A stretch of 64,000 nucleotides of DNA, from positions 176,001 through 240,000 of the forward strand of contig NW_027478540.1 of NCBI RefSeq assembly GCF_051014685.1, given 5' to 3'. The translations under genes were made by a program, and so were the position numbers. This stretch comes from Ptiloglossa arizonensis. Its lineage: Eukaryota; Arthropoda; Insecta; Hymenoptera; Colletidae. A model generated the notes under the pieces. That model made no database searches, was not told the DNA's origin, and saw only the letters and a program-made list of their open reading frames with translations. This document shows positions 3,757 through 59,695 of the stretch, one piece after another (position 1 is the stretch's first letter; each line of letters starts with the position of its first letter).

Positions 3757-4462
3757 CGAATCGGAGAAACGGAGAAACGGAGAAACGATGAAACGAAGAA
3801 AGAAACGGAGAAACGAAGAAAGAAACGGAGAAATGAAGAATGAAACGAAGAAACGAAGAAAGAAACGGAGAAACGAAGAAATAAACAGAGAAACGGAGAA
3901 ACGAAGAAACATAGAAACGAACAAAGAAACGCAGAAACGAAGAATGAAACGGAGAAACGAAGAAATAAACGGAGAAATGAAGAAAGAAACGGAGAAACGA
4001 AGAAAGAAACGGAGAGACGAAGAAAGAAACGGAGAATCGGAGAAATAAATGGAGAAACGAAGAAATAAACCGAGAAACGGAGAAAGAAACGGAGAAACGA
4101 ACAAAGAAACGGAGAAACGAAGAAAGAAACGGAGAAACGAACAAAGAAACGGAGAAACGGAGAAAGAAACGGAGTAACGAAGAAAGAAACGAAGAAACGA
4201 ACAAAGAAACGGAGAAACGAAGAAAGAAACGGAGAAACGAAGAAAGAAACGGAGAAACGCAGAAATAAATGGAGAAACGAAGAAATAAACGGAGAAACGA
4301 AGAAAGAAACGGAGAAACGAAGAAAGAAACGGAGTAACGAAGAAAGAAACGGACAAACTGAGAAATAAATGGAGAAACGAAGATATAAACGGAGAAACGA
4401 ACAAAGAAACGGAGAAACGAACAAAGAAACGGAGAAACGAAGAAAGAAACGGAGAAACGAAG

Positions 4463-5640
4463 AAAGAAACGGGGAAACGAAGAAAGAAACGGAGAAACGA
4501 AGAATGAAACGGAGAAACGAAGAAAGAAACGGAGAAACGAAGAAATAAACGGAGAAACGAAGAAAGAAACCGAGAAACGGAGAAACGAACAAAGAAACGG
4601 AGAAACGAACAAAGAAACGGAGAAACGGAGAAATAAATGGGGAAACGAACAAAAAAATGGAGAAACGAACAAAGAAACGGAGAAAGGAAGAAAGAAACGG
4701 AGAAACGGATAAATAAATGGAGAAACGAACAAAGAAACGGAGTAACGAAGAAAGAAACGGAGAAACTGTGAAATAAATGGAGAAACGAAGAAATAAACGG
4801 AGAAACGAACAAAGAAACGGAGAAACGAAGAAAGAAACGGAGTAACGAAGAAAGAAACGGAGAAACTGAGAAATAAATGGAGAAACGAAGAAATAAACGG
4901 AGAAACGAACAAAGAAACGGAGAAACGAACAAAGAAACGGAGTAACGAAGAAAGAAACGGAGAAACTGAGAAATAAATGGAGAAACGAAGAAATAAACGG
5001 AGAAACGAACAAAGAAACGGAGAAACGAAGAAAGAAACGGAGAAACGAAGAAAGAAACGGGGAAACGAAGAAAGAAACGGAGAAACGAAGAATGAAACGG
5101 AGAAACGAAGAAAGAAACGGAGAAACGAAGAAATAAACGGAGAAACGAAGAAAGAAACCGAGAAACGGAGAAACGAACAAAGAAACGGAGAAACGAACAA
5201 AGAAACGGAGAAACGGAGAAATAAATGGGGAAACGAACAAAAAAATGGAGAAACGAACAAAGAAACGGAGAAAGGAAGAAAGAAACGGAGAAACGGATAA
5301 ATAAATGGAGAAACGAACAAAGAAACGGAGTAACGAAGAAAGAAACGGAGAAACTGTGAAATAAATGGAGAAACGAAGAAATAAACGGAGAAACGAACAA
5401 AGAAACGGAGAAACGAAGAAAGAAACGGAGTAGCGAAGAAAGAAACGGAGAAACTGAGAAATAAATGGAGAAACGAAGAAATAAACGGAGAAACGAACAA
5501 AGAAACGGAGAAACGAAGAAAGAAACGGAGAAACGAAGAAAGAAACGGGGAAACGAAGAAAGAAACGGAGAAACGAAGAATGAAACGGAGAGACGAAGAA
5601 AGATACGGAGAAACGAAGAGAGAAACGGAGAAACGGAGAA
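4463..5640. repeat. Higher-order tandem duplication inside A1 (~0.59 kb)
   Basis: Marker variants recur about 588 bp apart: AAAGAAACCG at 4563 and 5151, and GAAACGGGGAAACG near 4465 and 5055. They are followed by the same order of AACAAAAAAATGG and AAACTGTGAAAT variants. This is a local segmental duplication within the satellite, with approximate ends. Confidence 0.6.
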
Positions 5641-6619
5641 GTAAATGGAGAAACGAAGAAATAAACGGAGAAACGAAGAAAGAAACAGAGAAACGAACAA
5701 AGAAACGGAGAAACGAAGAAAGAAACGGAGTCACGAAGAAAGAAACGGAGAAACTAAGAAATAAATGGAGAAACGATGAAATAAACGGAGAAACGAACAA
5801 AGAAACGGAGAAACGAAGAAATAAACGGAGAAACGAAGAAAGAAACGGAGAAACGTAGAAAGAAACGGAGAAACAAAGAAAGAAACGGAGTAACGAAGAA
5901 AGAAACGGAGAAACGATGAAAGATACGGAGAAACGAAGAGAGAAACGGAGAAACGGAGAAATAAATGGAGAAACGAAGAAATAAAAGGAGAAACGAACAA
6001 AGAAACGGTGAAACGAAGAAAGAAACGGAGAAACGAAGAAAGAAACGGAGAAACGAAGAAAGAATCGGAGAAACGAACAAAGAAACGGAGAAACGAAGAA
6101 AGAAACGGAGAAGCGAACAAAGATACGGCGAAACGGGTAATGAAACGGAGTAACGAAGAAAGAAACGAAGAAACGAAGAAAGAAACGGAGAAACGTAGAA
6201 TGAAACGGAGAAACGAAGAAAGAAACGGAGTAACGAAGAAAGAAACGGAGAAACTGAGAAATAAATGGAGAAACGAAGAAATAAACGGAGAAACGAACAA
6301 AGAAACGGAGAAACGAAGAAAGAAACGGAGAAACGAAGAAAGAAACGGAGTAACGAAGAAAGAAACAAAGAAACGAAGAAAGAAACGGAGAAACGAAGAA
6401 TGAAACGGAGAAACGAAGAAAGGAACGGAGAAACGAAGAATGAAACGGAGAAACGAAGAAAGATACGGAGAAACGAAGAGAGAAACGGAGAAACGGGGAA
6501 GTAAATGGAGAAACGAAGAAATAAACCGAGAAACGGAGAAAGATACGGAGAAACGAAGAGAGAAACGGAGAAACGGGGAAGTAAATGGAGAAACGAAGAA
6601 ATAAACGGAGAAACGAAGA

Positions 6620-8340
6620 AAGAAACGGAGAAACGAAGAATGAATCGGAGAAACGAAGAAAGAAACGGAAAAACGAAGAATGAAACGGAGAAACGAAGAA
6701 AGATACGGAGAAACGAAGAGAGAAACGGAGAAACGGAGAAATAAATGGAGAAACGAAGAAATAAAAGGAGAAACGAACAAAGAAACGGTGAAACGAAGAA
6801 AGAAACGGAGAAACTGAGAAATAAATGGAGAAACGAAGAAATAAACGGAGAAACGAACAAAGAAACGGAGAAACGAAGAAAGAAACGGAAAAACGAAGAA
6901 AGAAACGGAGTAACGAAGAAAGAAACAAAGAAACGAAGAAAGAAACGGAGAAACGAAGAATGAAACGGAGAAACGAAGAAAGAAACGGAGAAACGAAGAA
7001 TGAAACGGAGAAACTGAGAAATAAATGGAGAAACGAAAAAATAAACGGAGAAACGAACAAAGAAACGGAGAAACGAAGAATGAAACGGAGAGACGAAGAA
7101 AGATACGGAGAAACGAAGAGAGAAACGGAGAAACGGAGAAGTAAATGGAGAAACGAAGAAATAAACGGAGAAACGAAGAAAGAAACGGAGAAACGAACAA
7201 AGAAACGGAGAAACGAAGAAAGAAACGGAGTCACGAAGAAAGAAACGGAGAAACTAAGAAATAAATGGAGAAACGATGAAATAAACGGAGAAACGAACAA
7301 AGAAACGGAGAAACGAAGAAATAAACGGAGAAACGAAGAAAGAAACGGAGAAACGTAGAAAGAAACGGAGAAACAAAGAAAGAAACGGAGTAACGAAGAA
7401 AGAAACGGAGAAACGAAGAAAGAAACGGAGTAACGAAGAAAGAAACAAAGAAACGAAGAAAGAAACGGAGAAACGAAGAAAGAAACGGAGAAACGAAGAA
7501 TGAATCGGAGAAACGAAGAAAGAAACGGAAAAACGAAGAATGAAACGGAGAAACGAAGAAAGATACGGAGAAACGAAGAGAGAAACGGAGAAACGGAGAA
7601 ATAAATGGAGAAACGAAGAAATAAAAGGAGAAACGAACAAAGAAACGGTGAAACGAAGAAAGAAACGGAGAAACTGAGAAATAAATGGAGAAACGAAGAA
7701 ATAAACGGAGAAACGAACAAAGAAACGGAGAAACGAAGAAAGAAACGGAAAAACGAAGAAAGAAACGGAGTAACGAAGAAAGAAACAAAGAAACGAAGAA
7801 AGAAACGGAGAAACGAAGAATGAAACGGAGAAACGAAGAAAGAAACGGAGAAACGAAGAATGAAACGGAGAAACTGAGAAATAAATGGAGAAACGAAAAA
7901 ATAAACGGAGAAACGAACAAAGAAACGGAGAAACGAAGAATGAAACGGAGAGACGAAGAAAGATACGGAGAAACGAAGAGAGAAACGGAGAAAAGGAGAA
8001 GTAAATGGAGAAACGAAGAAATAAACGGAGAAACGAAGAAAGACACGGAGAAACGAACAAAGAAACGGAGAAACGAAGAAAGAAACGGAGTCACGAAGAA
8101 AGAAACGGAGAAACTAAGAAATAAATGGAGAAACGATGAAATAAACGGAGAAACGAACAAAGAAACGGAGAAACGAAGAAATAAACGGAGAAACGAAGAA
8201 AGAAACGGAGAAACGTAGAAAGAAACGGAGAAACAAAGAAAGAAACGGAGTAACGAAGAAAGAAACGGAGAAACGAAGAAAGAAACGGAGTAACGAAGAA
8301 AGAAACAAAGAAACGAAGAAAGAAACGGAGAAACGAAGAA
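6620..8340. repeat. 860-bp tandem duplication inside A1
   Basis: The 6620-7480 and 7480-8340 segments match variant by variant at an offset of 860 bp. Shared markers include the AATGAATCGG unit (about 6650 and 7510), AAACTGAG, AAACTAAG and AAACGTAG units, and near-identical 177-codon purine-strand frames at 6825 and 7685. Few differences separate the two, so the event looks recent. Confidence 0.8.
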
Positions 8341-8699
8341 AGAAACGGAGAAGCGTAGAAAGAAACGTAGAAACGAAGAAAGTAACGGAGAAACGAAGAA
8401 AGAAACGGAGAAACGAAGAAAGAAACGGAGAAACGAAGAAAGAAACGGAGAAACGAAGAAAGAAACGGAGTAACGAAGAAAGAAACGAAGAAACGAACAA
8501 AGAAACGGAGAAACGAAGGAAGAAACGGAGAAACGGAGAAATAAATGGAGAAACGAACAAAGAAACGGAGAAACGGAGAAATAAATGGAGAAACGAAGAA
8601 ATAAACGGAGAATCGATGAAAGAAACGGAGGAACGAAGAAAGAAACGGAGAAACGATGAAAGAAACGGAGAAACAAAGAAAGAAACGAACAAACGAAGA

Positions 8700-8842
8700 A
8701 AGAAACGGAGAAACGGAAAAACCGAGAAACGGAGAAACGGAGAAACCGAGAAACGGAGAAACCGAGAGACGGAGAAACGGAGAAACCGAGAAACGGAGAA
8801 ACGGAGAAACGGAGAAACGGAGAAACGTTTCTTTGTTCGTTT
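8700..8842. repeat. 8-bp repeat zone and switch point of A1
   Basis: Just left of the switch the 20-bp unit gives way to GAAACGGA/GAAACCGA 8-mers. Polarity flips at 8826/8827. Here the right side continues straight into 20-bp units, so the 8-bp zone is one-sided. Confidence 0.85.
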
Positions 8843-9403
8843 CTCCGTTTATTTCTTCGTTTCTCCATTTATTTCTCTGTTTCTCCGTTTGTTTCTTCGT
8901 TTCTCCGTTTTTTGTTCGTTTCTCCGTTTCTTTCTTCGTATCTCCGCTTCTTTCTTCGTTTCTCCGTTTCTTTCTTCGTTTCTCCGTTTCTTTCTTCGTT
9001 TCTCCGTTTCTTACTTCGTTTCTCCGTTTCTTTCTTCGTTTCTCCGTTTATTTCTTCGTTCCTCCATTTATTTCTCCGTTTCTCCCTTTCTCCGTTTCTT
9101 TGTTCGTTTCTCCGTTTCTTTGTTCGTTTCTCCGTTTCTTCCTTCGTTTCTCCGTTTATTTCTTCGTTTCTCCATTTATTTCTCCGTTTCTCCGTTTCTT
9201 TGTTCGTTTCTCCGTTTCTTTGTTCGTTTCTCCGTTTCTTTGTTCGTTTCTCCGTTTCTTTGTTCGTTTCTCCGTTTCTTTGTTCGTTTCTCCGTTTCTT
9301 TGTTCGTTTCTCCGTTTCTTTCTTCGTTTCTCCGTTTCTTTCTTCGTTTCTCCGTTTCTTCCTTCGTTTCTTCGTTTCTCCGTTTCTCCGTTTCTCCGTT
9401 TCG

Positions 9404-11127: not shown

Positions 11128-14100
11128 CGAAACGGAGAAACGGAGAAACGATGAAACGAAGGAAGAAACGGAGAAACGAAGAAAGAAACGCAGAAACGAA
11201 GAAAGAAACAGAGTAACGAAGAAAGAAACGGAGAAACGAAGAAAGAAACGGAGTAACGAAGAAAGAAACGAAGAAACGAAGAATGAAACGGAGAATCGGA
11301 GAAATAAATGGAGAAACGAAGAAATAAACCGAGAAACGGAGAAAGAAACGGAGAAACGAAGAAAGAAACGGAGAAACGAAGAAAGAAACGGAGAAACGAA
11401 CAAAGAAACGGAGGAACGAACAAAGAAACGGAGAAACGAAGAAAGAAACGGAGAATCGGAGAAATAAATGGAGAAACGAAGAAATAAACCGAGAAACGGA
11501 GAAAGAAACGGAGAAACGAACAAAGAAACGGAGAAACGAACAAAGAAACGGAGAAACGAAGAAAGAAACGGAGAAACGAACAAAGAAACGGAGAAGCGAA
11601 GAAAGAAACGAAGAAAAGAAGAAAGAAACGGAGAAAAGAAGAAAGAAACGAAGAAAGAAACGAAGAAACGAAGAAAGAAACGGAGAAAACAAGAAAGAAA
11701 CGAAGAAAGAAACGAAGAAACGAAGAAAGAAACGGAGAAACGAAGAAAGAAACAGAGAAACAAAGAAAGAAACGGAGAAACGAAGAAAGAAACGGAGAAA
11801 CGAAGAAAGAAACGGAGAAACGAAGAGACAAACGGAGAAACGAAGAAAGAAACGGAGAAACGAAGAAAGAAACGGAGAAACGAAGAAAGAAACGGAGAAA
11901 CCAAAAAAGAAACGGAGAAACGAAGAAACAAACGGAGAAACGAAGAAATAAATGGAGAAGCGAAGAAAAAAACGGAGAAAGGGAGAAAGAAACGAAGAAA
12001 CGGAGAAATAAATGGAGAAGCGAAGAAATAAACGAAGAAACGAAGAAAGAAACGGAGAAACGAAGAAAGAAACGGAGAAACCAAAAAAGAAACGGAGAAA
12101 CGAAGAAAGAAACGGAGAAACGAAGAAATAAATGGAGAAGCGAAGAAAAAAACGGAGAAAGGGAGAAAGAAACGAAGAAACGAACAAAGAAACGGAGAAA
12201 CGAAGAAAGAAGCGGAGAAACGACGAAAGAAACGGAGAAACGAAGAAAGAAACGAAGAACCGATGAAAGAAACGGAGAAACGAACAAAGAAACGGAGAAA
12301 CGAACAAAGAAACGGAGAAACGAAGAAAGAAACTGAGAAACGAAGAAAGAAACGGAGAATCGGAGAATCGGAGAAATAAATGGAGAAACGAAGAAATAAA
12401 CCGAGAAACGGAGAAAGAAACGGAGAAACGAACAAAGAAACGGAGAAACGAAGAAAGAAACTGAGAAACGAAGAAAGAAACGGAGAATCGGAGAAATAAA
12501 TGGAGAAACGAAGAAATAAACCGAGAAACGGAGAAAGAAACGGAGAAACGAAGAAAGAAATGGAGAAACGGAGAAATAATCCGAGAAACGAAGAAAGAAA
12601 CGGAGAATCGGAGAAATAAAAGGAGAAACGAAGAAATAAACCGAGAAACGGAGAAAAAAACGTAGAAACGAACAAAGAAACGGAGAAACGAACAAAGAAA
12701 CGGAGAAACGAACAAAGAAACGGAGAAACGAACAAAGAAACTGAGAAACGAAGAAAGAAACGGAGAATCGGAGAAATAAATGGAGGAACGAAGAAATAAA
12801 CCGAGAAACGGAGAAAGAAACGGAGAAACGAAGAAAGAAACGCAGAAACGAAGAAAGAAACGGTGAAACGAAGGAAGAAACGGAGAAACGGAGAAATAAA
12901 TGGAGAAACGAAGAAATAAACGGAGAAGCGAACAAAGAAACGGAGAAACGAAGAAAGAAACGGAGAAACGAAGAAAGAAACGGAGAAACGAACAAAGAAA
13001 CGAAGAAACGAAGAAAGAAACGGAGAAACGGAGAAATAAATGGAGAAGCGAAGAAATAAACGAAGAAACGAACAAAGAAACGGAGAAACGAAGAAAGAAG
13101 CGGAGAAACGACGAAAGAAACGGAGAAACGAAGAAAGAAACGAAGAAACGAAGACAGAAACGGAGAAACGAAGAAAGAAACGGAGAATCGGAGAAATAAA
13201 TGGAGAAACGAAGAAATAAACCGAGAAACGGAGAAAGTAACGGAGAAACGAAGAAAGAAACGGAGAAACGAACAAAGAAACGGAGAAACGTTTCTCCGTT
13301 TCTCAGTTTTTCCGTCTCTCCGTTTCTCGGTTTCTCCGTTTCTCCGTTTCTCCGTTTCTCCGTTTCTCCGTTTCTCGGTTTCTCCGTTTCTCCGTTTCTC
13401 CGTTTCTCGGTTTCTCCGTTTCTCCGTTTCTCGGTTTCTCGGTTTCTCCGTTTCTCCGTTTCTCCGTTTCTCCGTATCTCCGTTTCTCGGTTTCCCCGTT
13501 TCTCCATTTCTCGGCTTCTCCGTTTCTCCGTTTCTCCGTTTCTCGGTTTATCCGTTTTTCCGTTTCTCCGTTTCTCGGTTTCTCCGTTTCTCCGTTTCTC
13601 CGTTTCTCGGTTTCTCCGTTTCTTCGTTTCTCCGTTTCTCCGTTTCTCCGTTTCTCCGTTTCTCCGTTTCTCGGTTTCTCCGTTTCTCGGTTTCTCCGTT
13701 TCTCTGTTTCTCCGTTTCTCCGTTTCTCCGTCTCTCCGTTTCTCGGTTTCTCCGTTTCTCCGTTTCTCGGTTTCTCCGTTTCTCCGTTTCTCCGTTTCTC
13801 GGTTTCTCCGTTTCTCCGTTTCTCGGTTTCTCCGTTTCTCAGTTTTTCCGTTTCTCCGTTTCTCCGTTTCTCCTTTTCTCGGTTTCTCCGTTTCTCCGTT
13901 TCTCCGTTTCTCCGTTTCTCCGTTTCTCGGTTTCTCCGTTTCTCCGTTTCTCTGTTTCTCCGTTTCTCCGTTTCTCGGTTTCTCCGTTTCTCCGTTTCTC
14001 CGTTTCTCGGTTTCTCCGTTTCTCCGTTTCTCCGTTTCTCGGTTTCTCCGTTTCTCCGTTTCTCGGTTTCTCCGTTTCTCAGTTTTTCCGTTTCTCCGTT

Positions 14101-14503
14101 TCTCCGTTTCTCGGTTTCTCCGATTCTCGGTTTCTCCGTTTCTTTGTTTCTCGGTTTCTCCGTTTCTCGGTTTCTCCGTTTCTCCGTTTTTCGGTTTTTC
14201 CGTTTCTCCGTTTCTCGGTTTCACCGTTTTTTGTTTGTTCCTCCGTTTCTTTTTTCGATTCTCCGTTTATTTCTTCGTTTCTCCATTTATTTCTCCGTTT
14301 CTCCGTTTCTTTCTTCGTTTCTTCGTTTCTTTCTTCGTTTCTTCGTTTCTTTCTTCGTTTCTCCGTTTCTTTCTCCGTTTCTCGGTTTATTTCTTCGTTT
14401 CTCCGTTTCTTTCTTCGTTTCTTCGTTTCTTCGTTTCTTTCTTCGTTTCTACGTTTCTTCCTTCGTTTCATCGTTTCTCCGTTACTCCGTTTCTCCGTTT
14501 CGA
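11128..14503. repeat. Satellite array A2, palindromic
   Basis: Purine strand from 11128 to the switch at 13289/13290, then pyrimidine strand to 14503. The purine arm contains a patch with irregular GAAGAAAGAAACGAAG spacing (about 11600-11760). The right side starts with a long 8-bp zone before 20-bp units resume. A 1033-codon minus-strand frame crosses the switch (11123-14224), changing from a K/R/E/N-rich to an F/S/R/V-rich repeat. This shows that the frame follows base composition and not coding. Confidence 0.95.
13290..14226. repeat. Long 8-bp repeat zone of A2
   Basis: About 940 bp of TTTCTCCG and TTTCTCGG 8-mers, starting exactly at the switch and lying only on its right side. CCG and CGG versions alternate in recurring patterns, so a higher-order structure sits on top of the 8-bp unit. 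Confidence 0.88.
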
Positions 14504-15629: not shown

Positions 15630-15966
15630 AAAAATTTCAAGAAATTGATGGCCAACGACGGTTGTTAATAATTATGATAAATAAGTGTCAAGATATTGCG
15701 AAGTCTGCGAAGGCGAACGGTTTCAGTGAATGTTTGTTCATTTCAGCGATTGTTATTAACATTTACGCATGTTCCCTATATTGATCGAACAATGTGCATC
15801 TTATTTATGCATTAAAAATGATTGATTCGCCTCTAGCAATTGATTTTGATCGAACTTCAAAGTAAAGAGATGTTTCTTAAAGTTTTAAAACATGGAAAGT
15901 AATAATTGTCTATGAGATATATCAATTTAACATTTGATTAATACATGAAGAATCGAAATTTTTGGT
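15630..15966 (+). repeat. L repeat with internal deletion
   Basis: Forward L unit lacking the stretch that elsewhere reads CTTTTTATACCGAAACATTG. It ends at GAATCGAAATTTTTGGT, where a non-L insert begins. Confidence 0.8.
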
Positions 15967-15983
15967 ATTTTCCTGATACCAAA
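15961..15983. other. Small hairpin at the L/insert boundary
   Basis: TTTGGTAT (15961-15968) and ATACCAAA (15976-15983) are perfect inverted arms around TTTCCTG. This is exactly where L sequence stops and the insert starts, so it may mark the insertion point or the terminus of an inserted element. Confidence 0.5.
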
Positions 15984-16499
15984 GGTTGAAATTCGGGCAT
16001 AAATTTTAGAAAATGTTTGATTTTGGGACTCTTGGTGTCAGTATACGATATGCGAGGAAGTGGCACGATTTCGCGGATTCTTCGAATTGACGTCAAATTC
16101 CAAGAATTTCCGCGAATCGGAAATTTGTAGGACTTTCGAACGAATTTCTGAATCATGGATCCCGATTTTCTTTGTATCAGGAGAACATGATAGTCGAGGA
16201 CATATAGTTTTAAGTTGTTTTACCAGTTTGATAGGATCGGGTTAAAGGAATGGAAACAAATAATGGACAAAAATAAAGTTTCTGTTGTCAGTGAAATTGA
16301 TTTTATTTCAATACATCAATTCATCGGAAATACAATCGCTTTTCTTCGATCCATTAACATATTCGCACTTTCATACTCATTACAAATATGTTGTTCTTTA
16401 AAGTACTCTACTTGTAGAAAGTACTGTACCGAAAAGTACTCTACTGTACCGTAAAAATTACTATTCTAAATTCGCAGCCGATTAGCTCGGTACTACCTA

Positions 16500-16522
16500 C
16501 GACGAATAAATATTGTTCGTCG
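16500..16522. other. Perfect 7-bp hairpin upstream of the structured domains
   Basis: CGACGAA (16500-16506) pairs with TTCGTCG (16516-16522) around a 9-base AT-rich loop. It lies about 70 bp before the first GGAATCAA-type hairpin. Confidence 0.5.
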
Positions 16523-16589
16523 CGAGTAATACCGATTACCAGGTCTCACCACGTGGAGGTTGCTGCGAGCGGAGACCCGGAGAGAGATA

Positions 16590-16609
16590 GATGGAATCAA
16601 AGTTCCATC
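16590..16609. other. Hairpin h0, extra copy of the domain-leading hairpin
   Basis: GATGGAA (16590-16596) pairs with TTCCATC (16603-16609) around TCAAAG. The two later copies (16659-16678 and 17136-17155) use GAAGGAA/TTCCTTC around TCAATG. The third base of the arm and its partner both differ, so pairing is preserved. It may be the start of a third, mostly lost domain. Confidence 0.55.
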
Positions 16610-16652
16610 GATCTCCCTCGACACGCGATACAAACGAAGATACTAAACCAAA

Positions 16653-17129
16653 GAGATGGAAGGAATCAATGTTCCTTCGATCTCCTCGTTTAGTTCTGCC
16701 AAGCAATTACATTATGGAAAAATTAGGCAAAATTGGGAAAGACGCGACACGAACCGTGCAGTTGGTCCTACTAGGTCTATCCCGTTTCCCCTCCGTGGTT
16801 CCGATTCCAGAGAAAACGAACGACGCCTACCACTCCCCTAGAGGAGTGCCCCGTTTCTCCATCTTTACGACGAGAGGGTCTTATTTTGGAGGCTTTCGCA
16901 GGGACCGGCAAAAATGCCTGCTCCTGTGCTCGCAACATGCCCCCTCTGGAAGCGGACACACCGGAAGAGACGGCGATAGACCGTTCGGACTACTTACACG
17001 GCCGGCCACTTGCTTGTACAAGAAGCAGTGGTGACCGGACCGAGGAACGAGGAAGCGAGCAAAATTAAGCTAAAGATTGGATAATTGCTTGGCAGATCAC
17101 AGCCTTAAAACTAACTTATTCTAACTGCA
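16653..17129 (+). ncRNA. Candidate structured RNA domain R1 (copy 1)
   Basis: A leading hairpin (16659-16678) is followed by a domain closed by a perfect 15-bp stem: TCTGCCAAGCAATTA (16695-16709) with TAATTGCTTGGCAGA (17082-17096). Inside are CACTCC/GGAGTG (16831-16848), a stem-loop at 16897-16928 ending in GGCA-AAAA-TGCC, and a CCAC-TTGCTT/AAGCA-GTGG arm (about 17008-17033). Compared with R2, paired changes keep the stems. The strand is inferred only from G-U tolerance. The function is unknown. A 147-codon frame (16591-17034) overlaps it but is not kept in R2. Confidence 0.5.
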
Positions 17130-17660
17130 GAGATAGAAGGAATCAATGTTCCTTCGATCTCCTCGTTTAATTCTGCCGAGCAACTACATTATGGAAAAAT
17201 TAGCAAAATTGGGAAATACGCGACACGAACCGTGCAGTTGGTCCTACTAGGTCGGTCCCGTTTCCCCTCAGTGGGCCCGATTAAAGAGGAAATGCACGAC
17301 GCCGTCCACTCATATAGAGTGCCCCGTTTCTCCCAACTCCGCGTCAGGAACCACGCAAAGCGTGGACCTGACTTACGGAGGATGACGAAGAGAGGGTCTT
17401 GTGGCACAAGGGCTTCCGCAGGGACCGGTGCGAACACCTGCCCCTGTGTTCGCAGCATATTCTCTCTCAAAGCGGACGCACCAGAAGAGACGGCGATCGA
17501 GCGTTCGGTCCACCTCCACGGCCGGTCACTTGCTTATGCAACAAGCAGAGGTGGCCGGACTGAGATACGAGCAAGCGAGCAAAAAGAAGCTAAAGATTGG
17601 ATAATTGCTCGGCAGATGACAGATATTCGTACATGGTGACCTTAAAACTAACTTAGTCTA
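17130..17660 (+). ncRNA. Candidate structured RNA domain R2 (copy 1)
   Basis: Tandem, diverged relative of R1. The closing stem is TCTGCCGAGCAACTA (17172-17186) with TAATTGCTCGGCAGA (17602-17616), 14 of 15 paired. The stem-loop at 17417-17448 ends in GGTG-CGAA-CACC in place of R1's GGCA-AAAA-TGCC. CACTC/GAGTG (17307-17321) replaces CACTCC/GGAGTG. R2 has an extra nested hairpin absent from R1: CTCCG/CGGAG, GTCAGG/CCTGAC and CCACGC/GCGTGG (17337-17380). It resembles an expansion helix. No protein or known RNA family is recognised. Confidence 0.5.
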
Positions 17661-17730
17661 TACTTGGAATTAACAGTCCCGCGGAGGATGCAATACATCA
17701 GTCCTCTTCGTTCTTCGTTCTTCGTTTTCC

Positions 17731-18111
17731 GATACATCTAAGAGAATGTATCTAAGTGAAACCTAAGAGAAACCTAAGAGAAACCTAAAGTCAAGGCATA
17801 ATAGAAAATAGAAATGAATTTGGTTAGTGGAAAAGAATAAACATGTAAAAACAAGTAGAAATTAAAATCAGAGAACAAATGAAATGAATTAGACAAAGAA
17901 ACGATTAAAAAAAAAAAGAAAGGATTGAGAGAGTGGTCGCCAGTACTGACCACCGCCTACCGGCGGCCAGTACCGGTTACCATGGTGGGGGGTCCCCCTT
18001 CCATAAACCTAAAACGAAGAGATCCGTCCATCTCGGAGCCTCCAGGAAGAATGAAATTTTAAACAATCGGCGGCTCCTTATATACCCACCGCAAGGTCAC
18101 TTACCAGTGAC
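17731..18111. other. Hairpin-dense tail of the insert (copy 1)
   Basis: Perfect short stems follow one another: GATACAT/ATGTATC (17731-17752), GTGGTC/GACCAC (17933-17953), CCGCC-TACC-GGCGG (17953-17966), ATGG..GGGG/CCCC..CCAT (about 17982-18004) and GTCACT-TACC-AGTGAC (18096-18111). Two loops are TACC. The stretch between 17760 and 17930 is purine-rich with CCTAAGAGAAA repeats and holds no gene I can see. Confidence 0.5.
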
Positions 18112-18132
18112 TTACCGTTACTTCCATTGTCT

Positions 18133-18895
18133 TTGTTCGATCTAATCGAATATTTCAACAAATTGATGGCTTTTTAGCCATTATTTATACTAGAACATTG
18201 TTAATAATTGTTTAATCTACGGTCCTACGACGGTTGTTAATAAACATGATAAATAAACAACAAGATATTGCGAAATCTACGAAGGCGAACGGTTTCGGTG
18301 AATGTTTGTTCATTTCCACGATTGTTACTAACATTTATGCATGTTCCCAATATTGATCGAACAATGTGCATCTTATTTATATATTGCAATTAATTAAGAA
18401 ACTTATAGAAATTGATTTTGATCGAGGCTCGATGTTAAAACGTGTTTCTTAATGTTTCAAAGCATGGAAAGTGACAATTGTTCATTAGATACATTAATTT
18501 AACATTTGTTTCATTCTTATAATTTACACAATACGCGTAGAAGTGGTATTTTTTACATAAAAGTGTCAAAATTTAATTAATCGCTGTTCTGGATAGAAAA
18601 ATCACCGCGATGAATACTTGTGAATCGATAATCGATACGTGTAGCCTTGAGAATGTCAGTTGGATCTCAGCGAAAAATTCCTCCGCGAACACAGAATATT
18701 TCAACGAAATGATATTTTAAGGCATTATTTATACTAGGACATTGTTAAAAATTGTCTAATGTATGATACTACGACGGTTGTTAATAATAATGTAAACAAA
18801 CATCAAGATATTGCGAAATCTGCGAAGGCGTATTGCTATAGCGAATGTTTATGTCTCTAGGCGATTGTTATAAACATTTTTGCAAGTTCCCAACT
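18133..18895 (+). repeat. L repeats, long form plus partial, forward
   Basis: One long L unit (18133-18693) carries an extra segment with AATCGATAATCGATACGTG, and a second partial unit follows (18694-18895). Both start with a TATTTCAAC(A/G)AAAT-type motif. No gene is supported. Confidence 0.78.
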
Positions 18896-19192
18896 TTTAT
18901 ATTACAGTATGAAAATTAAATTTTATCGGAAAATTTAACTAATAGTTTGGTATACATATATTTCTCGATTTTTTATGAAAATTAATATTTGTAAACTAAT
19001 TAATGGTTTGCACTGTAAAAGTTGGGATTATTAATTTTACAAAATGCATTTTCTTTTGCATTGTAAATCAATAATTTCCTTTAGAAGATAAATATTGGTT
19101 GCAAATCGAGAAATATATGAATACAAATATTTTACTTTCACAATCGATCGTTTCCGATCGCAATTAATTCCTGAAAACTAACTAATGATTTA
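18896..19192. other. Unique AT-rich core between inverted L repeats
   Basis: About 300 bp lying between forward L units on the left and reverse L units on the right, so it is the loop of a large inverted repeat. I see no gene or motif. It differs more from its duplicate at 52199-52490 than the flanks do, including a 14-base length difference near 19140. Confidence 0.6.
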
Positions 19193-20506
19193 GGATGCCT
19201 AAGTAAGATGCACATTATTCGATCAATATTGGGAACATGCATAAATGTTAGTAACAATCGCGGAAATGGACAAATATTCACCGAAACCGTTCGCCTTCCC
19301 AGATATCGCAATATCTCGGGGTTTGTTTGTCATAATTATTAACAACCGTCGTAGGACCATACTTTAGACAATTATTAACAATGTCCTAGTATAAATCATG
19401 GGTTAAAATATCATTTCGTTGAAATATTCTTTTTTCGCGATGGAATAGTTATTGAGATCGAACCGACATTGTCAAGGCTGGAAATGTTTATCGATTCACA
19501 AACGTCCATCACGATGATTTTTCTATCTAGAAAAGCGATTAATTGAATTTCAACGCTTTTACTTAAAGAATACAGCTTCCACGCGTATTCCGAAAATTAT
19601 AAGAACGAAACAAATGTTAAATTAATGTATCTAATAAACAATTGCCACTTCCCATGCTTTGAAACATTAAGAAACACGTTTATACCTCGAATCTCGGTCA
19701 AAATTAATTGCTGTAGGCGAACCAATCATATTTAATGCATAAATAAGATGCATATTGTAAGATAAATGTTCGGAACATGTATAAATGTTAGTAACAATCG
19801 CAGAAATGAACAAACATTCTCCGAAACCGTTCGTCTTCGCAGATTTTGCAAAATCTCGATGTTTATTTATCATATTTATTAACAAGCGTCGTAGAACCAT
19901 ACTTTAGACAATTATTAACAATGTCCTAGTATAAATAATGCCTTAAAATATCATTTCGTTGAAATATTCTGTGTTCGCGGAGGAATTTTTCGCTGAGATC
20001 CAACTGACATTCTCAAGGCTACACGTATCGATTATCGATTCACAAGTATTCATCGCGGTGATTTTTCTATCCAGCACAGCGATTAATTAAATTTTGGCAC
20101 TTTTATGTAAAAAATACCACTTCTACGCGTATTGTGTAAATTATAAGAATAAAACAAATGTTAAATTAATGTATCTAATAAACAATTGTCACTTTCCATG
20201 CTTTGAAACATTAAGAAACACGTTTTAACATCTAGCCTCGATCAAAATCAATTTCTATAAGTTTCTTAATTAATTGCAATACATAAATAAGATGCACATT
20301 GTTCGATCAATATTGGGAACATGCGTAAATGTTAATAACAATCGCTGAAATGAACAAACATTCACTGAAACCGTTCGCCTTCGCAGACTTCGCAATATCT
20401 TGTTGTTTATTTATCATAATTATTAACAACCGTCGTTGGACCGTAGATTAAACAAATTTTGACAATGTTTCGGTATAAAAAGCCATCAATTTCTTGAAAT
20501 ATTTGG
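19193..20506 (-). repeat. Three L repeats in tandem, reverse
   Basis: Units at about 19193-19430, 19431-19969 and 19970-20506, mirroring the forward L copies at 18133-18895. The middle one keeps a 77-codon frame (19667-19900, minus) related to a 72-codon frame in another L copy at 27763-27981. Most other copies have a TGA in that frame, so I do not call a gene. Confidence 0.78.
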
Positions 20507-21626: not shown

Positions 21627-24600
21627 TGAAACATAGAAACGGAGAAACGAAGAAAGAAACGAAGAAACGAAGAAAGAAACGGAGAAAAGAAGAAAGAAAC
21701 GGAGAAACGAAGAAAGAAACGGAGAAACGAAGAAAGAAACGAAGAAACGAAGAAAGAAACGGAGAAACGAAGAAAAAAACGGAGAAACGAACAAAGAAAC
21801 GGAGAAACGAAGAAAGAAACGGAGAAACGAAGAAAGAAACGGAGAAACGAAGAAAGAAACGGAGAATCGGAGAAATAATTGGAGAAACGAAGAAATGAAC
21901 CGAGAAACGGAGAAAGAAACGGAGAAACGAACAAAGAAACGGAGAAACGAACAAAGAAACGGAGAAACGAAGAAAGAAACGAAGAAACGAAGAAAGAAAC
22001 GGAGAATCGGAGAAATAAATGGAGAAACGAAGAAATAAACCGAGAAACGGAGAAAGAAACGGAGAAACGAACAAAGAAACGGAGAAACGAACAAAGAAAC
22101 GGAGAAACGAACAAAGAAACGGAGAAACGAACAAAGAAACGGAGAAACGAAGAAAGAAACGGAGAAACGGAGAAATAAATGGAGAAACGAAGAAATAAAC
22201 GGAGAAACGAAGAAAGAAACGGAGAAACGAAGAAAGAAACGGAGAAACGAAGAAAGAAACGGAGAAACGGAGAAACGAACAAAGATACGGAGAAACGAAG
22301 AAAGAAACGGAGAAACGAAGAAAGAAACGGAGAAACGAACAAGGAAACGGAGAAACGAAGAAAGAAACGGAGACACGGAGAAATAAATGGAGAAACGAAG
22401 AAATAAACGGAGAAACGAACAAAGAAACGGAGAAACGAAGAAAGAAACGGAGAAAGGAAGAAAGAAACGGAGAAACGAAGAAAGAAACGGAAAAACGGAG
22501 AAATAAATGGAGAAACGAAGAAATAAACGGAGAAACGAACAAAGAAACGGAGAAACGAAGAAAGAAACGGAGAAACGAAGAAAGAAACGGAGAAACGAAG
22601 AAACAAACGGAGAAACGAAGAAAGAAACGGAGAAACGAAGAAAGAAACGGAGAAACGAAGAAAGAAACGGAGAAACGAAGAAAGAAACGGAGAATCGGAG
22701 AAATAATTGGAGAAACGAAGAAATGAACCGAGAAACGGAGAAAGAAACGGAGAAACGAACAAAGAAACGGAGAAACGAACAAAGAAACGGAGAAACGAAC
22801 AAAGAAACGGAGAAACGAAAAAAGACACGGAGAAACGAAGAAAGAAACGGAGAATCGGAGAAATAATTGGAGAAACGAAGAAATGAACCGAGAAACGGAG
22901 AAAGAAACGGAGAAACGAACAAAGAAACGGAGAAACGAACAAAGAAACGGAGAAACGAACAAAGAAACGGAGAAACGAAAAAAGACACGGAGAAACGAAG
23001 AAAGAAACGGAGAATCGGAGAAATAAATGGAGAAACGTAGGAATAAACCGAGAAACGAACAAAGAAACGGAGAAACGAAGAAAGAAACGGAGAAACGAAC
23101 ATAGAAACGGAGAAACGAAGAAAGAAACGAAGAAACGAAGAAAGAAACGGAGAAAAGAAGAAAGAAACGGAGAAACGAAGAAAGAAACGGAGAAACGAAG
23201 AAAGAAACGAAGAAACGAAGAAAGAAATGGAGAAACGAAGAAAGAAACGGAGAAACGAACAAAGAAACGGAGAAACGAAGAAAGAAACGGAGAAACGAAG
23301 AAAGAAACGGAGAAACGAAGAAAGAAACGGAGAATCGGAGAAATAATTGGAGAAACGAAGAAATGAACCGAGAAACGGAGAAAGAAACGGAGAAACGAAC
23401 AAAGAAACGGACAAACGAACAAAGAAACGGAGAAACGAACAAAGAAACGGAGAAACGAAAAAAGACACGGAGAAACGAAGAAAGAAACGGAGAATCGGAG
23501 AAATAAATGGAGAAACGTAGGAATAAACCGAGAAACGAACAAAGAAACGGAGAAACGAAGAAAGAAACGGAGAAACGAAGAAGGAAACGGAGAAACGAAG
23601 AAAGAAACGGAGAAACGAAGAAAGAAACGGAGAAACGAAGAAAGAAACGAAGAAACGAAGAACGAAACGGAGAAACGAAGACAGAAACGGAGAAACGTTT
23701 CTCCGTTTCTCGGTTTTTCCGTTTCTTCGTTTCTCCGTTTCTCGGTTTCTCAGTTTTTCCGTTTCTCCGTTTCTCCGTTTCTCGGTTTCTCCGTTTCTCC
23801 GTTTCTCTGTTTCTCCGTTTCTCGGTTTCTCCGTTTCTCCGTTTCTCCGTTTCTCCGTTTCTCCGTTTCTCCGTTTCTCGGTTTCTCCGTTTCTCCGTTT
23901 CTCGGTTTCTCCGTTTCTCGGTTTTTCCGTTTCTCCGTTTCTCCGTTTCTTGGTTTCTCCGTTTCTCCGTTTCTCAGTTTTTCCGTTTCTCCGTTTTTCC
24001 GTTTCTCCGTTTCTCCGTTTCTCAGTTTTTCCGTTTCTCCGTTTCTCCGTTTCTCCGTTTCTCCGTTTCTCGGTTTCTCCGATTCTCGGTTTCTCCGTTT
24101 CTCCGTTTCTCGGTTTCTCCGATTCTCGGTTTCTCCGATTCTCGGTTTCTCCGTTTCTTCGTTTCTCGGTTTCTCCGTTTCTCGGTTTCTCCGTTTCTCC
24201 GTTTCTCCGTTTCTCCGTTTCTCCGTTTCTCGGTTTCTCCGTTTCTCTGATTCTCAGTTTCTCCGTTTCTCGGTTTCTCCGATTCTCGGTTTTTCAGATT
24301 TTCGGTTTCTCCGTTTCTCGGTTTCTCCGTTTCTCTGTTTCTCCGTTTCTCGGTTTCTCCGTTTCTCGGTTTCTCCGTTTCTCCGTTTCTCGGTTTCTCC
24401 GTTTCTCCGTTTCTCAGTTTCTCCGTTTCTCGGTTTCTCCGTTTCTCAGTTTTTCGGTTTTTCCGTTTCTCCGTTTCACCGTTTTTTGTTTGTTCCTCCG
24501 TTTCTTTCTTCGATTCTCCGTTTATTTCTTCGTTTCTCCATTTATTTCTCCGTTTCTTTCTTCGTTTCTCCGTTTCTCGGTTTATTTCTTCGTTTCTCCA

Positions 24601-26029
24601 TTTATTTCTCCGATTCTCCGTTTCTTCGTTTCTTTCTTCGTCTCTTCGTTTCTTTCTTCGTTTCTACGTTTCTTTCTTCGTTTCTCCGTTTGTTTCTTCG
24701 TTTCTCCATTTATTTCTCCGTTTCTCCGTTTCTTTCTTTGTTTCTCCGTTTCTTTCTTCGTTTCTCCGTTTCTTTCTTCGTTTCTCCCTTTCTTCCTTCG
24801 TTTCTTCGTTTCTTCCTTCGTTTCTCCGTTTCTTTCTTCGTTTCTCCGTTTCTTTCTTCGTTTCTCCCTTTCTTCCTTCGTTTCTTCGTTTCTTCTTTCG
24901 TTTCATCGTTTCTTTCTTCGTTTCTCCGTTTGCTTCTTCGTTTCTCCATTTATTTCTCCGTTTCTCCGTTTCTTTCTTCGTTTCTCCGTTTCTTTCTTCG
25001 TTTCTCCGTTTATATCTTCGTTTCTCCATTTATTTCTCCGTTTCTTTCTTCGTTTCTACGTTTCTTTCTTCGTTTCTCCGTTTGTTTCTTCGTTTCTCCA
25101 TTTATTTCTCCGTTTCTCCGTTTCTTTCTTTGTTTCTCCGTTTCTTTCTTCGTTTCTCCCTTTCTTCCTTCGTTTCTTCGTTTCTTCCTTCGTTTCTCCG
25201 TTTCTTTCTTCGTTTCTCCGTTTCTTTCTTCGTTTCTCCCTTTCTTCCTTCGTTTCTTCGTTTCTTCCTTCGTTTCTCCGTTTCTTTCTTCGTTTCTCCG
25301 TTTATTTCTTCGTTTCTCCATTTATTTCTCCGTTTCTCCGTTTCTTTGTTCGTTTCTCCGTTTCTTTGTTCGTTTCTCCGTTTCTTTGTTCGTTTCTCCG
25401 TTTCTTTCTTCGTTTCTCCGTTTATATCTTCGTTTCTCCATTTATTTCTCCGTTTCTTTCTTCGTTTCTCCGTTTCTTTCTTCGTTTCTCCGTTTATTTC
25501 TTCGTTTCTCCATTTATTTCTCCGTTTCTCCGTTTCTTTGTTCGTTTCTCCGTTTCTTTGTTCGTTTCTCCGTTTCTTTGTTCGTTTCTCCGTTTCTTTC
25601 TTCGTTTCCTCGTTTCTTTCTTCGTTACTCCGATTCTTTCTTCGTTTCTCCGTTTCTTTCTTCGTTTCTCCGTTTATTTTTTCGTTTCTCCATTTATTTC
25701 TCCGTTTCTCCGTTTCTTTCTTTGTTTCTCCGTTTCTTTCTTCATTTCTCCGTTTATTTCTTCGTTTCTCCGTTTCATTCTTCGTTTCTCTGTTTCTTTC
25801 TTCGTTTCTCCGTTTCTTCCTCCGTTTCTCGGTTTATTTCTTCGTTTCTCCGTTTCATTCTTCGTTTCTCCGTTTCTTTCTTCGTTTCTCCGTTTCTTTG
25901 TTCGTTTCTCCGTTTCTCCGTTTCTTTCATCGTTTCTTCGTTTCTTTCTTCATTTCTCCGTTTCTTTCTTCGTTTCTCCGTTTCTTCCTTCGTTTCATCG
26001 TTTCTCCGTTTCTCCGTTTCTCCGTTTCG
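21627..26029. repeat. Satellite array A3, palindromic
   Basis: Purine strand from 21627 to the switch at 23696/23697, then pyrimidine strand to 26029, giving nearly equal arms of about 2.1 and 2.3 kb. The right arm and the adjacent spacer are repeated at 41730-45455. Three long minus-strand frames of 606-658 codons occupy all three frames at once, as expected from a 20-bp unit without stops. Confidence 0.95.
23697..24482. repeat. 8-bp repeat zone of A3
   Basis: About 790 bp of TTTCTCCG/TTTCTCGG 8-mers start at the switch and end at a TTTCACCGTTTTTTGTTTG transition that is also present in A2, A5 and, inverted, A4. That places all of them in one lineage. Confidence 0.87.
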
Positions 26030-28299: not shown

Positions 28300-31200
28300 C
28301 GAAACCGTGAGACGGAGAAACGGAGAAACGGAGAAACGAAGAAACGAAGGAAGAAACGGAGAAACGAAGAAAGAAACGAAGAAACGAAGAAAGAAACGGA
28401 GAAACGAAGAAATAAACGGAGAAACGAAGAAAGAAACGGAGAAACGAAGAAAGAAACGGCGAAACGGAGAAATAAATGGGGAATCGAACAAAGAAATGGA
28501 GAAACGAACAAAGAAACGGAGAAACGAAGAAAGAAACGGAGAAACGGAGAAATAAATGGAGAAACGAAGAAATAAACGGAGAAACGAAGAAAGAAACGGA
28601 GAAACGAAGAAAGAAACGGAGAAATAAACGGAGAAACGAAGAAACAAACGGAGAAACGAAGAAAGAAACGGAGAAACGAAGATAGAAACGAAGAAACGAA
28701 GAAAGAAACGGAGTAACGAAGAAAGAATGAAGAAACGAAGAAAGAAACGGAGAAACGGAGATATACATGGAGAAACGAAGAAAGAAACGGAGAAACGAAC
28801 AAAGAAAAGGAGAAACGAAGAAAGAAACGGCGAAACGGAGAAATAAATGGGGAATCGAACAAAGAAATGGAGAAACGAAAAAAGAAACGGAGAAACGAAG
28901 AAAGAAACGGAGAAACGGAGAAATAAATGGAAAAACGAAGAAATAAACGGAGAAACGAAGATAGGAACGGAGAAACGAACAAAGAAGAGGAGAAACGACC
29001 AAAAAACGGAGAAACGATGAAAGAAACGGAGAAACGAACAAAGAAACGGAGAAACGAACAAAGAAACGGAGAAACGGAGAAACGAAGAAAGGAACGGAGA
29101 AACGAACAAAGATACGGAGAAACGATGAAAGAAACGGAGAAACGAAGAACGAAACGGAGAAACGAAGAATGAAACGGAAAATCGGAGAAATAAATGGATA
29201 AACGAAGAAATAAACCGAGAAACGGAGAAAGAAACGGAGGAACGAACATAGAAACGGAGAAACGAACAAACAAACGGAGAAACGAACAAACAAACGGAGA
29301 AACGAACAAAGAAACGGAGAATCGGAGAAATAAATGGAGAAATGAAGAACTAAACGGAGAAACGAACAAAGAAACGGAGAAACAAAGAAAGAAACGGAGA
29401 AACGAACAAAGAAACGGAGAAACGAAGAAAGAATCGGGAAACGAAGGAAGAAACGGGGAAACGAAGAAAGAAACGGAGAAACGAAGAAAGAAACGGAGAA
29501 ACGAACAAAGAAACGGAGAAGCTAACAAAGAAAAGGAGAAACGACCAAAAAAAAGAGAAACGAACAAAGAAACGGAGAAACGAATAAAGAAACGGAGAAA
29601 CATTGAAAGAAACGGAGAAACGAAAAAAGAAACGAAGAAACGAAGAAAGAAACGGAGAAACGAACAAAGAAACAGAGAAACGAACAAAGAAACGAAGACA
29701 CGGAGAAATAAATGGGGACACGGAGAAATAAATGGAGAAACGAACAAAGAAACGGAGAAACGGAGAAGCGGAGAAATAAGTGGAGAAACCTAGAAATAAA
29801 CGGAGAATCGAAGAAAGAAACGGAGGAACGATGAAAGAAACGGAGAAACGATGAAAGAAACGGAGAAACAAAGGAAGAAACGAAGAAAGAAACGGAGAAA
29901 CGAAGAAAGAAACGGAGAATCGGAGAAATAAATGGAGAAACGAACAAAAAACGGTGAAACGGAGAAACGGAGAAACGGAGAAACGGAAAACCCGAGAAAC
30001 GGAGAAACGGAGAAATCGAGAAACAGAGATACCGAGAAACGGAGAAACGGAGATACAGAGAAACGGAGAAACGGAGAAACGGAGAAACGGAGAAACGGAG
30101 AAACGGAGAAACGGAGAAACCGAGAAACGGAGAAACGGATAAACCGAGAAACCGAGAAACGGAGAAACGGAGAAACGGAGAAACGGAGAAACGGAGAAAC
30201 GGAGCAACGGAGAAACGGAGAAACCGAGAAACGGAGAAACGGAGAAACCGTGAAACGGAGAAACCGAGAAACGGAGAAACGGAGAAACGGAGAAACGGAG
30301 AAACCGAGAAACGGAGAAACGGAGAAACCGAGAAACGGAGAAACGGAGAAACCGAGAAACGGAGAAACGTTTCTCCGTTTCTTTGTTCGTTTCTCCGTTT
30401 CTTTGTTCGTTTCTCCGTTTCATTGTTCGTTTCTCCGTTTCTTTGTTCGTTTCTCCGTTTCTTTCTTTGTTTCTCCGTTTCTTTCTTCGTATCTGCGTTT
30501 ATTTCTTCGTTTCTCGGTTTATTTCTTCGTTTCTCCGTTTCTTTCTTCGTTTCTCCGTTTCTTTCTTCGTTTCTTCATTTATGTCTCCGATTCTCCGTTT
30601 CTTTCTTCGTTTCTCCGTTTCTTTGTTTCGTTTCTCCGTTTCTTTCTTCGTTTCTCCGTTTCTTTCTTCGTTTCTCCGTTTCTTTGTTCGTTTCTCCGTT
30701 TCTCTCTCCGTTTCTCGGTTTATTTCTTCGTTTCTCCATTTATTTCTCCGATTCTCCGTTTCTTTCTTCGGTTCTTCGTTACTCCGTTTCTTTCTTCGAT
30801 TGTCCGTTTCTTTCTTCGTTTCTCCGTTTCTTTGTTCGTTTCTCCGTTTCTTTCTCCGTTTCTCGGTTTATTTCTTCGTTTCTCCGTTTCTTTCTTCGTT
30901 TCTCCGTTTCTTTCTTCGTTTCTTCGTTTATTTCTTCGTTTCTCCATTTATTTCTCCGTTTCTCCGTTTCTATGTTCGTTTCTCCGTTTCTTTCTTCGTT
31001 TCTCCGTTTCTTTGTTCATTTCTCCGTATCTTTCTCCGTTTCTCGGTTTATTTCTTCGTGTCTCCATTTATTTCTCCGATTCTCCGTTTCTTTCTTCGTT
31101 TCTTCGTTTCTTTCTTCGGTACTCCGTTTCTTTCTTCGTTTCTCCGTTTCTTTCACCGTTTCTCCGTTTCTTTGTTCGTTTCTCCGTTTCTTTCTCCGTT

Positions 31201-31903
31201 TCTCGGTTTATTTCTTCGTGTCTCCATTTATTTCTCCGATTCTCCGTTTCTCTCTCCGTTTCTCGGTTTATTTCTTCGTTTCTCCATTTATTTCTCCGAT
31301 TCTCCGTTTCTTTCTTCGGTTCTTCGTTACTCCGTTTCTTTCTTCGATTGTCCGTTTCTTTCTTCGTTTCTCCGTTTCTTTGTTCGTTTCTCCGATTCTT
31401 TCTTCGTTTCTCCATTTCTTAGTTCGTTTCTCCGTTTCTTTCTCCGTTCCTCGGTTTATTTCTTCGTTTCTCCGTTTCTTTCTTCGTTTCCCCGTTTCTT
31501 TCTTCGTTTCTCCGTTTATTTCTTCGTTTCTCCATTTACTTCTCCGTTTCTCCGTTTCTCTCTACGTTTCTCCATTTCATTCTTCGTTTCTCCGTTTCTT
31601 TCTTCGTTTCTCCGTTTCTTTCTTCGTTTCTCCGTTTCTTTCCTTGTTGCTCCATTTCTTACTTCATTTCTCCGTTTATTTCTTCGTTTCTCCGTTTCGT
31701 TCTTCGTTTCTGCGTTTCTTTGTCCGTTTCTCTGTTTCTTTCTTCGTTCCTCCGTTTCTTTCTCCGTTTCTCTGTTTATTTCTTCGTTTCTCCGTTTCTT
31801 TCTTCGTTTCTTCGTTTCTTTCTTCATTCCTCCATTTCTTTCTCCGTATCTCCGTTTCTTTCTTCGTTTCATCGTTTCTCCGTTTCTCCGTTTCTCCGAT
31901 TCG
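28300..31903. repeat. Satellite array A4, palindromic
   Basis: Purine strand from 28300 to the switch at 30368/30369, then pyrimidine strand to 31903. The purine arm carries marker variants (ACGACCAAAAAACGG near 28995, GAATCGGGAAACGAAGG near 29431) that reappear inverted in array A0 and, for the second, in array A5. Here the 8-bp zone lies left of the switch, opposite to A2, A3 and A5. Confidence 0.95.
29946..30369. repeat. 8-bp repeat zone of A4
   Basis: About 420 bp of GAAACGGA/GAAACCGA 8-mers end at the switch on its left side. It begins with the AAAAAACGGTGAAACGG transition, the reverse complement of the one ending the A3 zone. Confidence 0.87.
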
Positions 31904-41976: not shown

Positions 41977-42626
41977 GTTTCTCCGTTTCTCGGTTTTTCC
42001 GTTTCTTCGTTTCTCCGTTTCTCGGTTTCTCAGTTTTTCCGTTTCTCCGTTTCTCCGTTTCTCGGTTTCTCCGTTTCTCCGTTTCTCTGTTTCTCCGTTT
42101 CTCCGTTTCTCGGTTTCTCCGTTTCTCCGTTTCTCCGTTTCTCGGTTTCTCCGTTTCTCCGTTTCTCCGTTTCTCCGTTTCTCCGTTTCTCGGTTTCTCC
42201 GTTTCTCTGATTCTCAGTTTCTCCGTTTCTCGGTTTCTCCGTTTCTCCGTTTCTCGGTTTCTCCGTTTCTCTGTTTCTCCGTTTCTCCGTTTCTCGGTTT
42301 CTCCGTTTCTCCGTTTCTCCGTTTCTCGGTTTCTCCGTTTCTCCGTTTCTCCGTTTCTCCGTTTCTCCGTTTCTCGGTTTCTCCGTTTCTCCGTTTCTCG
42401 GTTTCTCCGTTTCTCCGTTTCTCGGTTTTTCCGTTTCTCCGTTTCTCCGTTTCTTGGTTTCTCCGTTTCTCCGTTTCTCAGTTTTTCCGTTTCTCCGTTT
42501 TTCCGTTTCTCCGTTTCTCAGTTTTTCCGTTTCTCCGTTTCTCCGTTTCTCCGTTTCTCAGTTTCTCCGTTTCTCGGTTTCTCCGTTTCTCCGTTTTTCG
42601 GTTTTTCCGTTACTCCGTTTCACCGT
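41977..42626. repeat. 8-bp repeat zone of A5
   Basis: TTTCTCCG/TTTCTCGG 8-mers right of the switch, ending at the TTTCACCGTTTTTTGTTTG transition. It is a length variant of the A3 zone. Confidence 0.87.

Positions 42627-58160: not shown

Positions 58161-59689
<1,529 letters not shown>

Positions 59690-59695
<6 letters not shown>

Follow-up and report, generated by a model that had tools for sequence, protein, structure and literature searches.

The window analysed here, 64 kb of DNA at C170:176001-240000, was recognised as hymenopteran (insect) nuclear DNA on the basis of a piggyBac fragment and a mitochondrial insert. Its features are as follows, with all coordinates given within the window.

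3765-9395, 11129-14501, 21635-26021, 28316-31895, 33569-44112, 45733-47804 and 54933-57212: blocks of a 20-bp satellite (AGAAACGGAGAAACGAAGAA)
15968-16459, strand unassigned: "tail" segment ahead of the core, similar in its first half to the far end of the L025 copy
16460-16579, minus strand: left end of the element, with a terminal hairpin at 16487-16535
16583-16616: leading hairpin H0
16652-17123: unit 1, made up of hairpin H1 (16652-16685) and a structured domain closed by 16695-16709 / 17082-17096
17129-17660: unit 2, made up of hairpin H2 (17129-17162) and a structured domain closed by 17172-17186 / 17602-17616
about 17337-17380: extra nested helix of unit 2
17661-17904: A-rich spacer
17905-18052, minus strand: promoter-proximal structured stretch, with a hairpin at 17934-17982 and a run of 11 T on the minus strand (17907-17917)
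18052-18084, minus strand: TATA box TATATAAG and initiator-like TCATTC (A at 18052)
18121-20500 (right limit approximate): 544-bp tandem repeats directly adjoining the element
49763-51423: second copy of 16460-18120
57213-60600: mitochondrial nuclear insert at the right end of the window, with ND2-, COX1- and COX2-type pieces (Pfam) and tRNA-like stretches recognised by eye
61061-61247: tandem repeat with a 42-bp unit, immediately upstream of the piggyBac fragment
61547-62804: piggyBac-type transposase, broken, in two overlapping frames

The first piece of the piggyBac fragment has a Colletes gigas protein as its best relative (91% over 93% of the piece). The 20-bp satellite makes up about half of the window. 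The orientation of its blocks switches internally, and they are bordered by inverted copies of one piece of the mitochondrial insert, with the same junction sequence, and by the 544-bp repeat; because of these switches and the inverted junction copies, the organisation of the array appears to be palindromic. The first part of the mitochondrial insert (57213-57947) was found again next to the satellite blocks of the window, so this piece was amplified together with the array.

The element studied here runs from its left end with the terminal hairpin through the leading hairpin, unit 1, unit 2, the spacer, the promoter-proximal hairpins and the TATA box into the 544-bp repeats. Its second copy lies 33303 bases further on, with 0 differences across 15900-18200. 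Units 1 and 2 are identical in 396 of 468 ungapped columns (84.6%), which bears out the proposal of the first-pass annotation, made from the letters alone, that the two are diverged tandem paralogues. A third, degenerate unit was sought upstream and was not found beyond shuffles. Within 15940-18150 only the units and the leading hairpin are repeated, and an LTR retrotransposon was rejected as an identity for the block.

A protein-coding gene was rejected from codon-position counts and protein searches: substitutions fell 26/23/22 by codon position, giving no codon signal, and no protein homologue was found for either long open frame at E≤1. A Pfam search gave no match to the block. The 169-codon stop-free stretch of unit 2, a length reached by only 14 of 2000 shuffles, counts against a non-coding reading. 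A known RNA was rejected because no Rfam family matches, as the first-pass annotation had anticipated. At the gathering threshold there were 0 Rfam matches in the 64-kb window and six fetched loci, and a search of 15968-18200 at a maximum E of 5 produced three matches only, at E 3 to 3.3 and none in the units. Models of rRNA, which bear on the idea of an rDNA spacer, found no match in the window or the six loci. Hammerhead-core patterns gave no match. Exact patterns of 18-30 bases were absent from viral contigs and a 20-base pattern was absent from prokaryote genome contigs, as expected because the block is an insect repeat. Nothing describing this block was found in the open-licence literature.

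Rather than being a single-copy RNA gene, the block recurs across the genome. A search of its own assembly (998.7 Mb, 2016 contigs) returned 1488 first-look candidates, a figure that need not equal the copy number, and the 40 of these that were scored were all full length (40/40) with 95-100% identity. With a second query, for which 40 of 1720 were scored, matches lay on C1, C2, C3, C4, C5, C6, C7, C9, C13 and C170, and five inverted pairs, 6-8 kb apart, were present among the 40 listed matches. The 544-bp repeat sequence occurred in 18/18 fetched stretches of 8.9 kb. In the dispersed copies L024-L026 the element is followed by head-to-tail repeats of about 544 bp, numbering 2.6 to 8.5. The 544-bp repeats lie on both sides of the core in direct orientation but are part of tandem arrays. 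Long inverted repeats, by which a foldback element is recognised in single copies, were present in both of the paired loci read across. On C7 (L031 with L033/L034) the arms measure 6.4 kb, are 99.8% identical and end inside the 544-bp repeat, and on C13 (L030 with L035/L036) they measure at least 5.8 kb with 99.1-99.4% identity. Each arm contains tail, core, leader and 544-bp repeats, the tail preceding the core in both arms on each contig, and the palindromes span at least 12.5 kb. The first-pass annotation had named a foldback DNA element as its main alternative; this was partly right, in that the setting is one of high-copy repeats with near-perfect palindromes at these two loci. The central 8.5 kb of L030 and L031 held no stop-free frame longer than 149 codons.

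The ends of the element were compared among the dispersed copies. Homology at the left end of L024, L025 and L026 begins at about 16460, and their left flanks are otherwise unrelated. Tail sequence extends leftward beyond this point in C7, C13 and C2, so the point is not yet a proven end. The right end varies between copies. No target-site duplication was found at the junction in three copies, two of which shared words of 7-8 bases away from the junction, and inverted end words did not exceed the shuffled range in the same number of copies. Since neither feature was found at three copies, the idea of a clean transposon that duplicates its target or carries inverted end words was rejected. In the window and in the array copy L010, the first part of unit 2 matches unit 1 at places where L024-L026 differ, as after conversion (10 units in 5 copies).

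To compare the core with its flanks, a divergence set was assembled from eight copies (the window, L010, L024, L025, L026, C7, C13 and C2), giving 28 pairs; the other array copies were omitted as nearly identical. Mean substitutions per aligned site were 0.029 for the core (16580-17660), with 0.016 for unit 1, the lowest of any region, and 0.042 for unit 2. The corresponding means were 0.047 for the left end, 0.080 for the promoter-proximal stretch, 0.088 for the spacer, and 0.115 for both the promoter flank and the first 544-bp repeat. The spacer was more diverged than the core in 26/28 pairs, with p<0.05 in 17, and two pairs showed the reverse; in 11/28 pairs the contrast had p>0.05, as for L025/L026 (18/1083 versus 5/211). 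In most copy pairs the core has a slower rate of change than the flanks linked to it. The most diverged copy, C2, gave 0.019-0.035 for the core versus 0.20-0.23 for the spacer in its seven pairs (p 6e-13 to 4e-19). Its promoter-proximal stretch and promoter flank diverge by 0.20-0.27, like the spacer, suggesting that they lack core-like constraint in C2, where the long T run is also lost. Among L024-L026, divergence stays low between about 16580 and 17660, near the limits drawn in the first-pass annotation, with small rises at 16640 and 17180. We read the slow core as a sign of purifying selection; alternatively, localised gene conversion could be the cause of its uniformity.

Folds of the domains were compared with those of shuffled sequence, giving z values of -6.28 and -5.05 on the plus strand and of -5.40 for domain 1 on the minus strand. 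Most of the stems described in the first-pass annotation were found. The change of the closing stem from CCAAGC/GCTTGG to CCGAGC/GCTCGG is present, as is the lower-stem change from CTCCTG to CCCCTG, which turns G-U into G-C on the plus strand, and the three-part nested helix of the second domain (R2) has z values of -6.24 on the plus and -6.61 on the minus strand. The terminal-stem change from GGCA/TGCC to GGTG/CACC is also present, and the minus strand of unit 2 folds the proposed helix; the plus strand of unit 2, taken alone, prefers a different helix of 9 bp. The change from CACTCC/GGAGTG to CACTC/GAGTG proved to be a loss of length rather than a paired substitution, and unit 2 of L024-L026 has a longer version. 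The change from GATGGAA to GAAGGAA is real but sets the leading hairpin apart from both units rather than R1 from R2.

Pairing was then examined against shuffled substitutions. With the structure taken from R1 only, the number of double-changed kept pairs was 5 versus 1.29 expected on the plus strand (reached by 35/5000 shuffles) and 6 versus 1.46 on the minus strand (8/5000). With the structure from R2 only, the counts were within chance, at 2 versus 1.44 (2131/5000) on the plus and 4 versus 1.51 (287/5000) on the minus strand, and in the joint fold of units 1 and 2 double changes were not above the null (4 versus 3.3 on plus, 4 versus 3.0 on minus). The stability of the joint fold did exceed that of shuffles. 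Its z values, worked out from shuffle means and deviations, were about -4.9 (global shuffle) and -4.0 (regional) on the plus strand and about -3.7 and -3.3 on the minus strand, with 0/60 in each case. When substitutions were reshuffled in 60-column blocks, the joint fold stood at -137.3 versus -103.5 ± 8.5 on the plus strand and at -135.3 versus -115.1 ± 6.1 on the minus strand. Permutation of the unit 1/unit 2 pair with Watson-Crick pairs only gave z values of -4.21 and -4.72 (0/150 each, regional shuffles). The result was repeated in the units of L024, where unit 2 is less converted, with z values of -4.60 on the plus and -2.68 on the minus strand for this one pair of units (0/100 in each of four settings). 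Pairing is therefore preserved between the paralogues beyond shuffled substitutions. Because the Watson-Crick-only signal is equally strong, this permutation test cannot by itself separate RNA from folded DNA.

For an independent test, the structure was fixed from the window and changes were counted in six other loci. Broken pairs in unit 2 were modestly fewer than expected, at 30 versus 45.7 on the plus strand (76/1000) and 28 versus 48.6 on the minus strand (39/1000). Unit 1 gave no signal and double changes were not enriched; on the plus strand, kept-pair changes were below expectation (13 versus 23.4). The first-pass annotation had proposed to examine covariation with homologues from related genomes; the six further loci added no significant covariation, and this independent test was weak. 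The broader suggestion in that annotation of selection on an RNA fold is partly supported, in that pairing is kept beyond shuffled substitutions and the core is slower than its linked flanks in most comparisons; the equal Watson-Crick-only signal and the unsettled strand weigh on the other side.

As regards the strand, minus is likelier to be the transcribed one, judging from stability and motifs. The terminal and leader hairpins are more stable on the minus strand in 8/8 copies each, although for the terminal hairpin of L024 by only 0.3 kcal/mol. The nested helix of L024-L026 reaches -31.0 on the minus versus -23.6 on the plus strand, and unit 2 of L025 and L026 displays a C-G, U-G, U-A series on the minus strand. 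The hairpin at 17934-17982 has 16 uninterrupted pairs, including G-U, and is continuous only on the minus strand. The window has two distinct sites with a TATA box and initiator, one of them at 18084/18052. A wider alignment comprised 18 copies, L016 being omitted for its rearranged left end; TATATA is kept in 18/18 of its rows and in 8/8 copies of the divergence set, whereas L010 and L024-L026 have a different initiator-like motif. The hairpin evidence conflicts with the unit 1/unit 2 test with G-U allowed, in which the plus strand was stronger and G-U added signal only on plus, and the G-U to G-C change of the lower stem likewise favours plus. A strand-neutral count of mismatches in core and leader gave 3 G-T versus 10 A-C (p 0.18 for one part and 0.63 for the other), and an unrelated control stretch was itself skewed (21 versus 37, p 0.048). 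When stability on minus versus plus was compared with shuffles, the minus strand was clearly favoured in the vicinity of the promoter (z -2.5 and -2.6) but nowhere else (-1.2 to 0.8).

Taken together, we tentatively favour, at somewhat short of even confidence, a reading in which a high-copy repeat unit of a bee-like genome has the block as its constrained non-coding core, most likely transcribed into a structured RNA under selection. The core likely acts as RNA. Transcription, more probably of the minus strand, would start near 18052 from a putative TATA/initiator promoter that borders on the 544-bp repeats. The RNA would be under selection, for a possible host role in heterochromatin or for the spread of the repeat itself, so that the core hardly changes as spacer and satellite diverge. 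Long non-coding RNAs that are associated with satellites and have tandem units are a known kind, and the block resembles them in its high copy number, heterochromatin-like setting, tandem units and promoter-like motif beside repeats. It differs from them in a multi-domain fold preserved between paralogous units. To call the core a new RNA would be premature. A bolder proposal, which we consider quite improbable, is a new class of structured RNA with two paralogous domains of about 0.5 kb, located in the arms of very large, genome-wide bee palindromes, transcribed from promoters fed by the 544-bp repeats and serving as the functional heart of palindrome spread or maintenance.

The main rival reading, which we regard as somewhat unlikely, is that the hairpins matter, if at all, as DNA, in cruciforms or hairpin intermediates of replication and recombination. 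Paired changes would then come from template switching where inverted repeats are imperfect and from conversion of one palindrome arm by the other, with local conversion keeping the core uniform. The near-perfect palindromes on C7 and C13 speak for this reading, the conversion-like first part of unit 2 in the window and L010 fits it, and both the strength of the Watson-Crick-only tests compared with those including G-U and the lack of covariation excess in other loci agree with folded DNA. However, the limits of the low-divergence stretch in L024-L026, near 16580 and 17660, coincide with those of the structured core, spacer and satellite of the same copies are more diverged in most pairs, and some minus-strand helices are uninterrupted only through G-U pairs, which as DNA would be mismatches. 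Foldback (FB) and Galileo type elements have long, internally repetitive inverted repeats, and the block likewise shows long inverted repeats with tandem subrepeats inside. Unlike those elements, it has about 6 kb in each arm, with 99.1-99.8% identity, together with a non-coding core that is conserved; two loci lack a frame of transposase size, and neither true ends nor a target duplication could be found.

A non-autonomous mobile element, its core a cis-acting recognition or replication signal, is an unlikely identity on our assessment; transposition would be followed by expansion of satellite arrays, in a Helentron-like manner. The spread over ten contigs among 40 scored matches, the unrelated left flanks of L024, L025 and L026 up to one shared point, and the 544-bp tandem repeats inside are in its favour. 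Helentron non-autonomous elements (HINE, DINE-1 type) carry satellite-like arrays, as described in PMC7492417. Compared with these elements, the block is similar in being dispersed, with tandem repeats that also form arrays, a hairpin near one end, and no target-site duplication seen at three copies; it differs in that three copies showed no subterminal inverted repeats, in its variable right end, in a core that is about 1.1 kb long and holds two paralogous structured domains, and in multi-kb palindrome arms at two loci. Against mobility stand the junctions of the three copies, which bear neither target-site duplications nor inverted end words beyond shuffles, the variable right end together with the tail left of the supposed left end in C7, C13 and C2, and the frames of the two palindromic loci, all at or below 149 codons. 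We consider it highly improbable that the repeat is unconstrained, its stems being relics of palindromic origin and its slow core an effect of mutation rate or alignment in GC-rich versus AT-rich sequence. The spacer is indeed rich in A and aligned with gaps, the adjoining satellite monomers may not be orthologous, and 11 of the 28 pairs lack a significant contrast; the contrast in the seven C2 pairs and the pairing of units 1 and 2 beyond all 150 regional shuffles argue otherwise.

A change-resistant non-coding core within fast-evolving repeats provides a test case for the roles of satellites and palindromes. If transcribed, as in the reading we favour, the core would add a large structured RNA that Rfam does not cover. 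If it is not transcribed, it shows how RNA covariation can be imitated by DNA fold-backs, a point of concern wherever covariation serves as proof of RNA.

The promoter region also invites comparison with the type 3 promoter genes of Hymenoptera, which include telomerase RNA according to PMC9841428. Like these, the block has a TATA box ahead of a structured stretch that includes a T run (minus strand, 17905-18052). Telomerase RNA itself was rejected, with neither a TTAGG template-like motif on either strand of 16460-18120 nor an Rfam match. With its TATA box, about 148 bases, strong hairpins and final 11-T run, 17905-18052 on the minus strand could be a separate Pol III-type small RNA gene.
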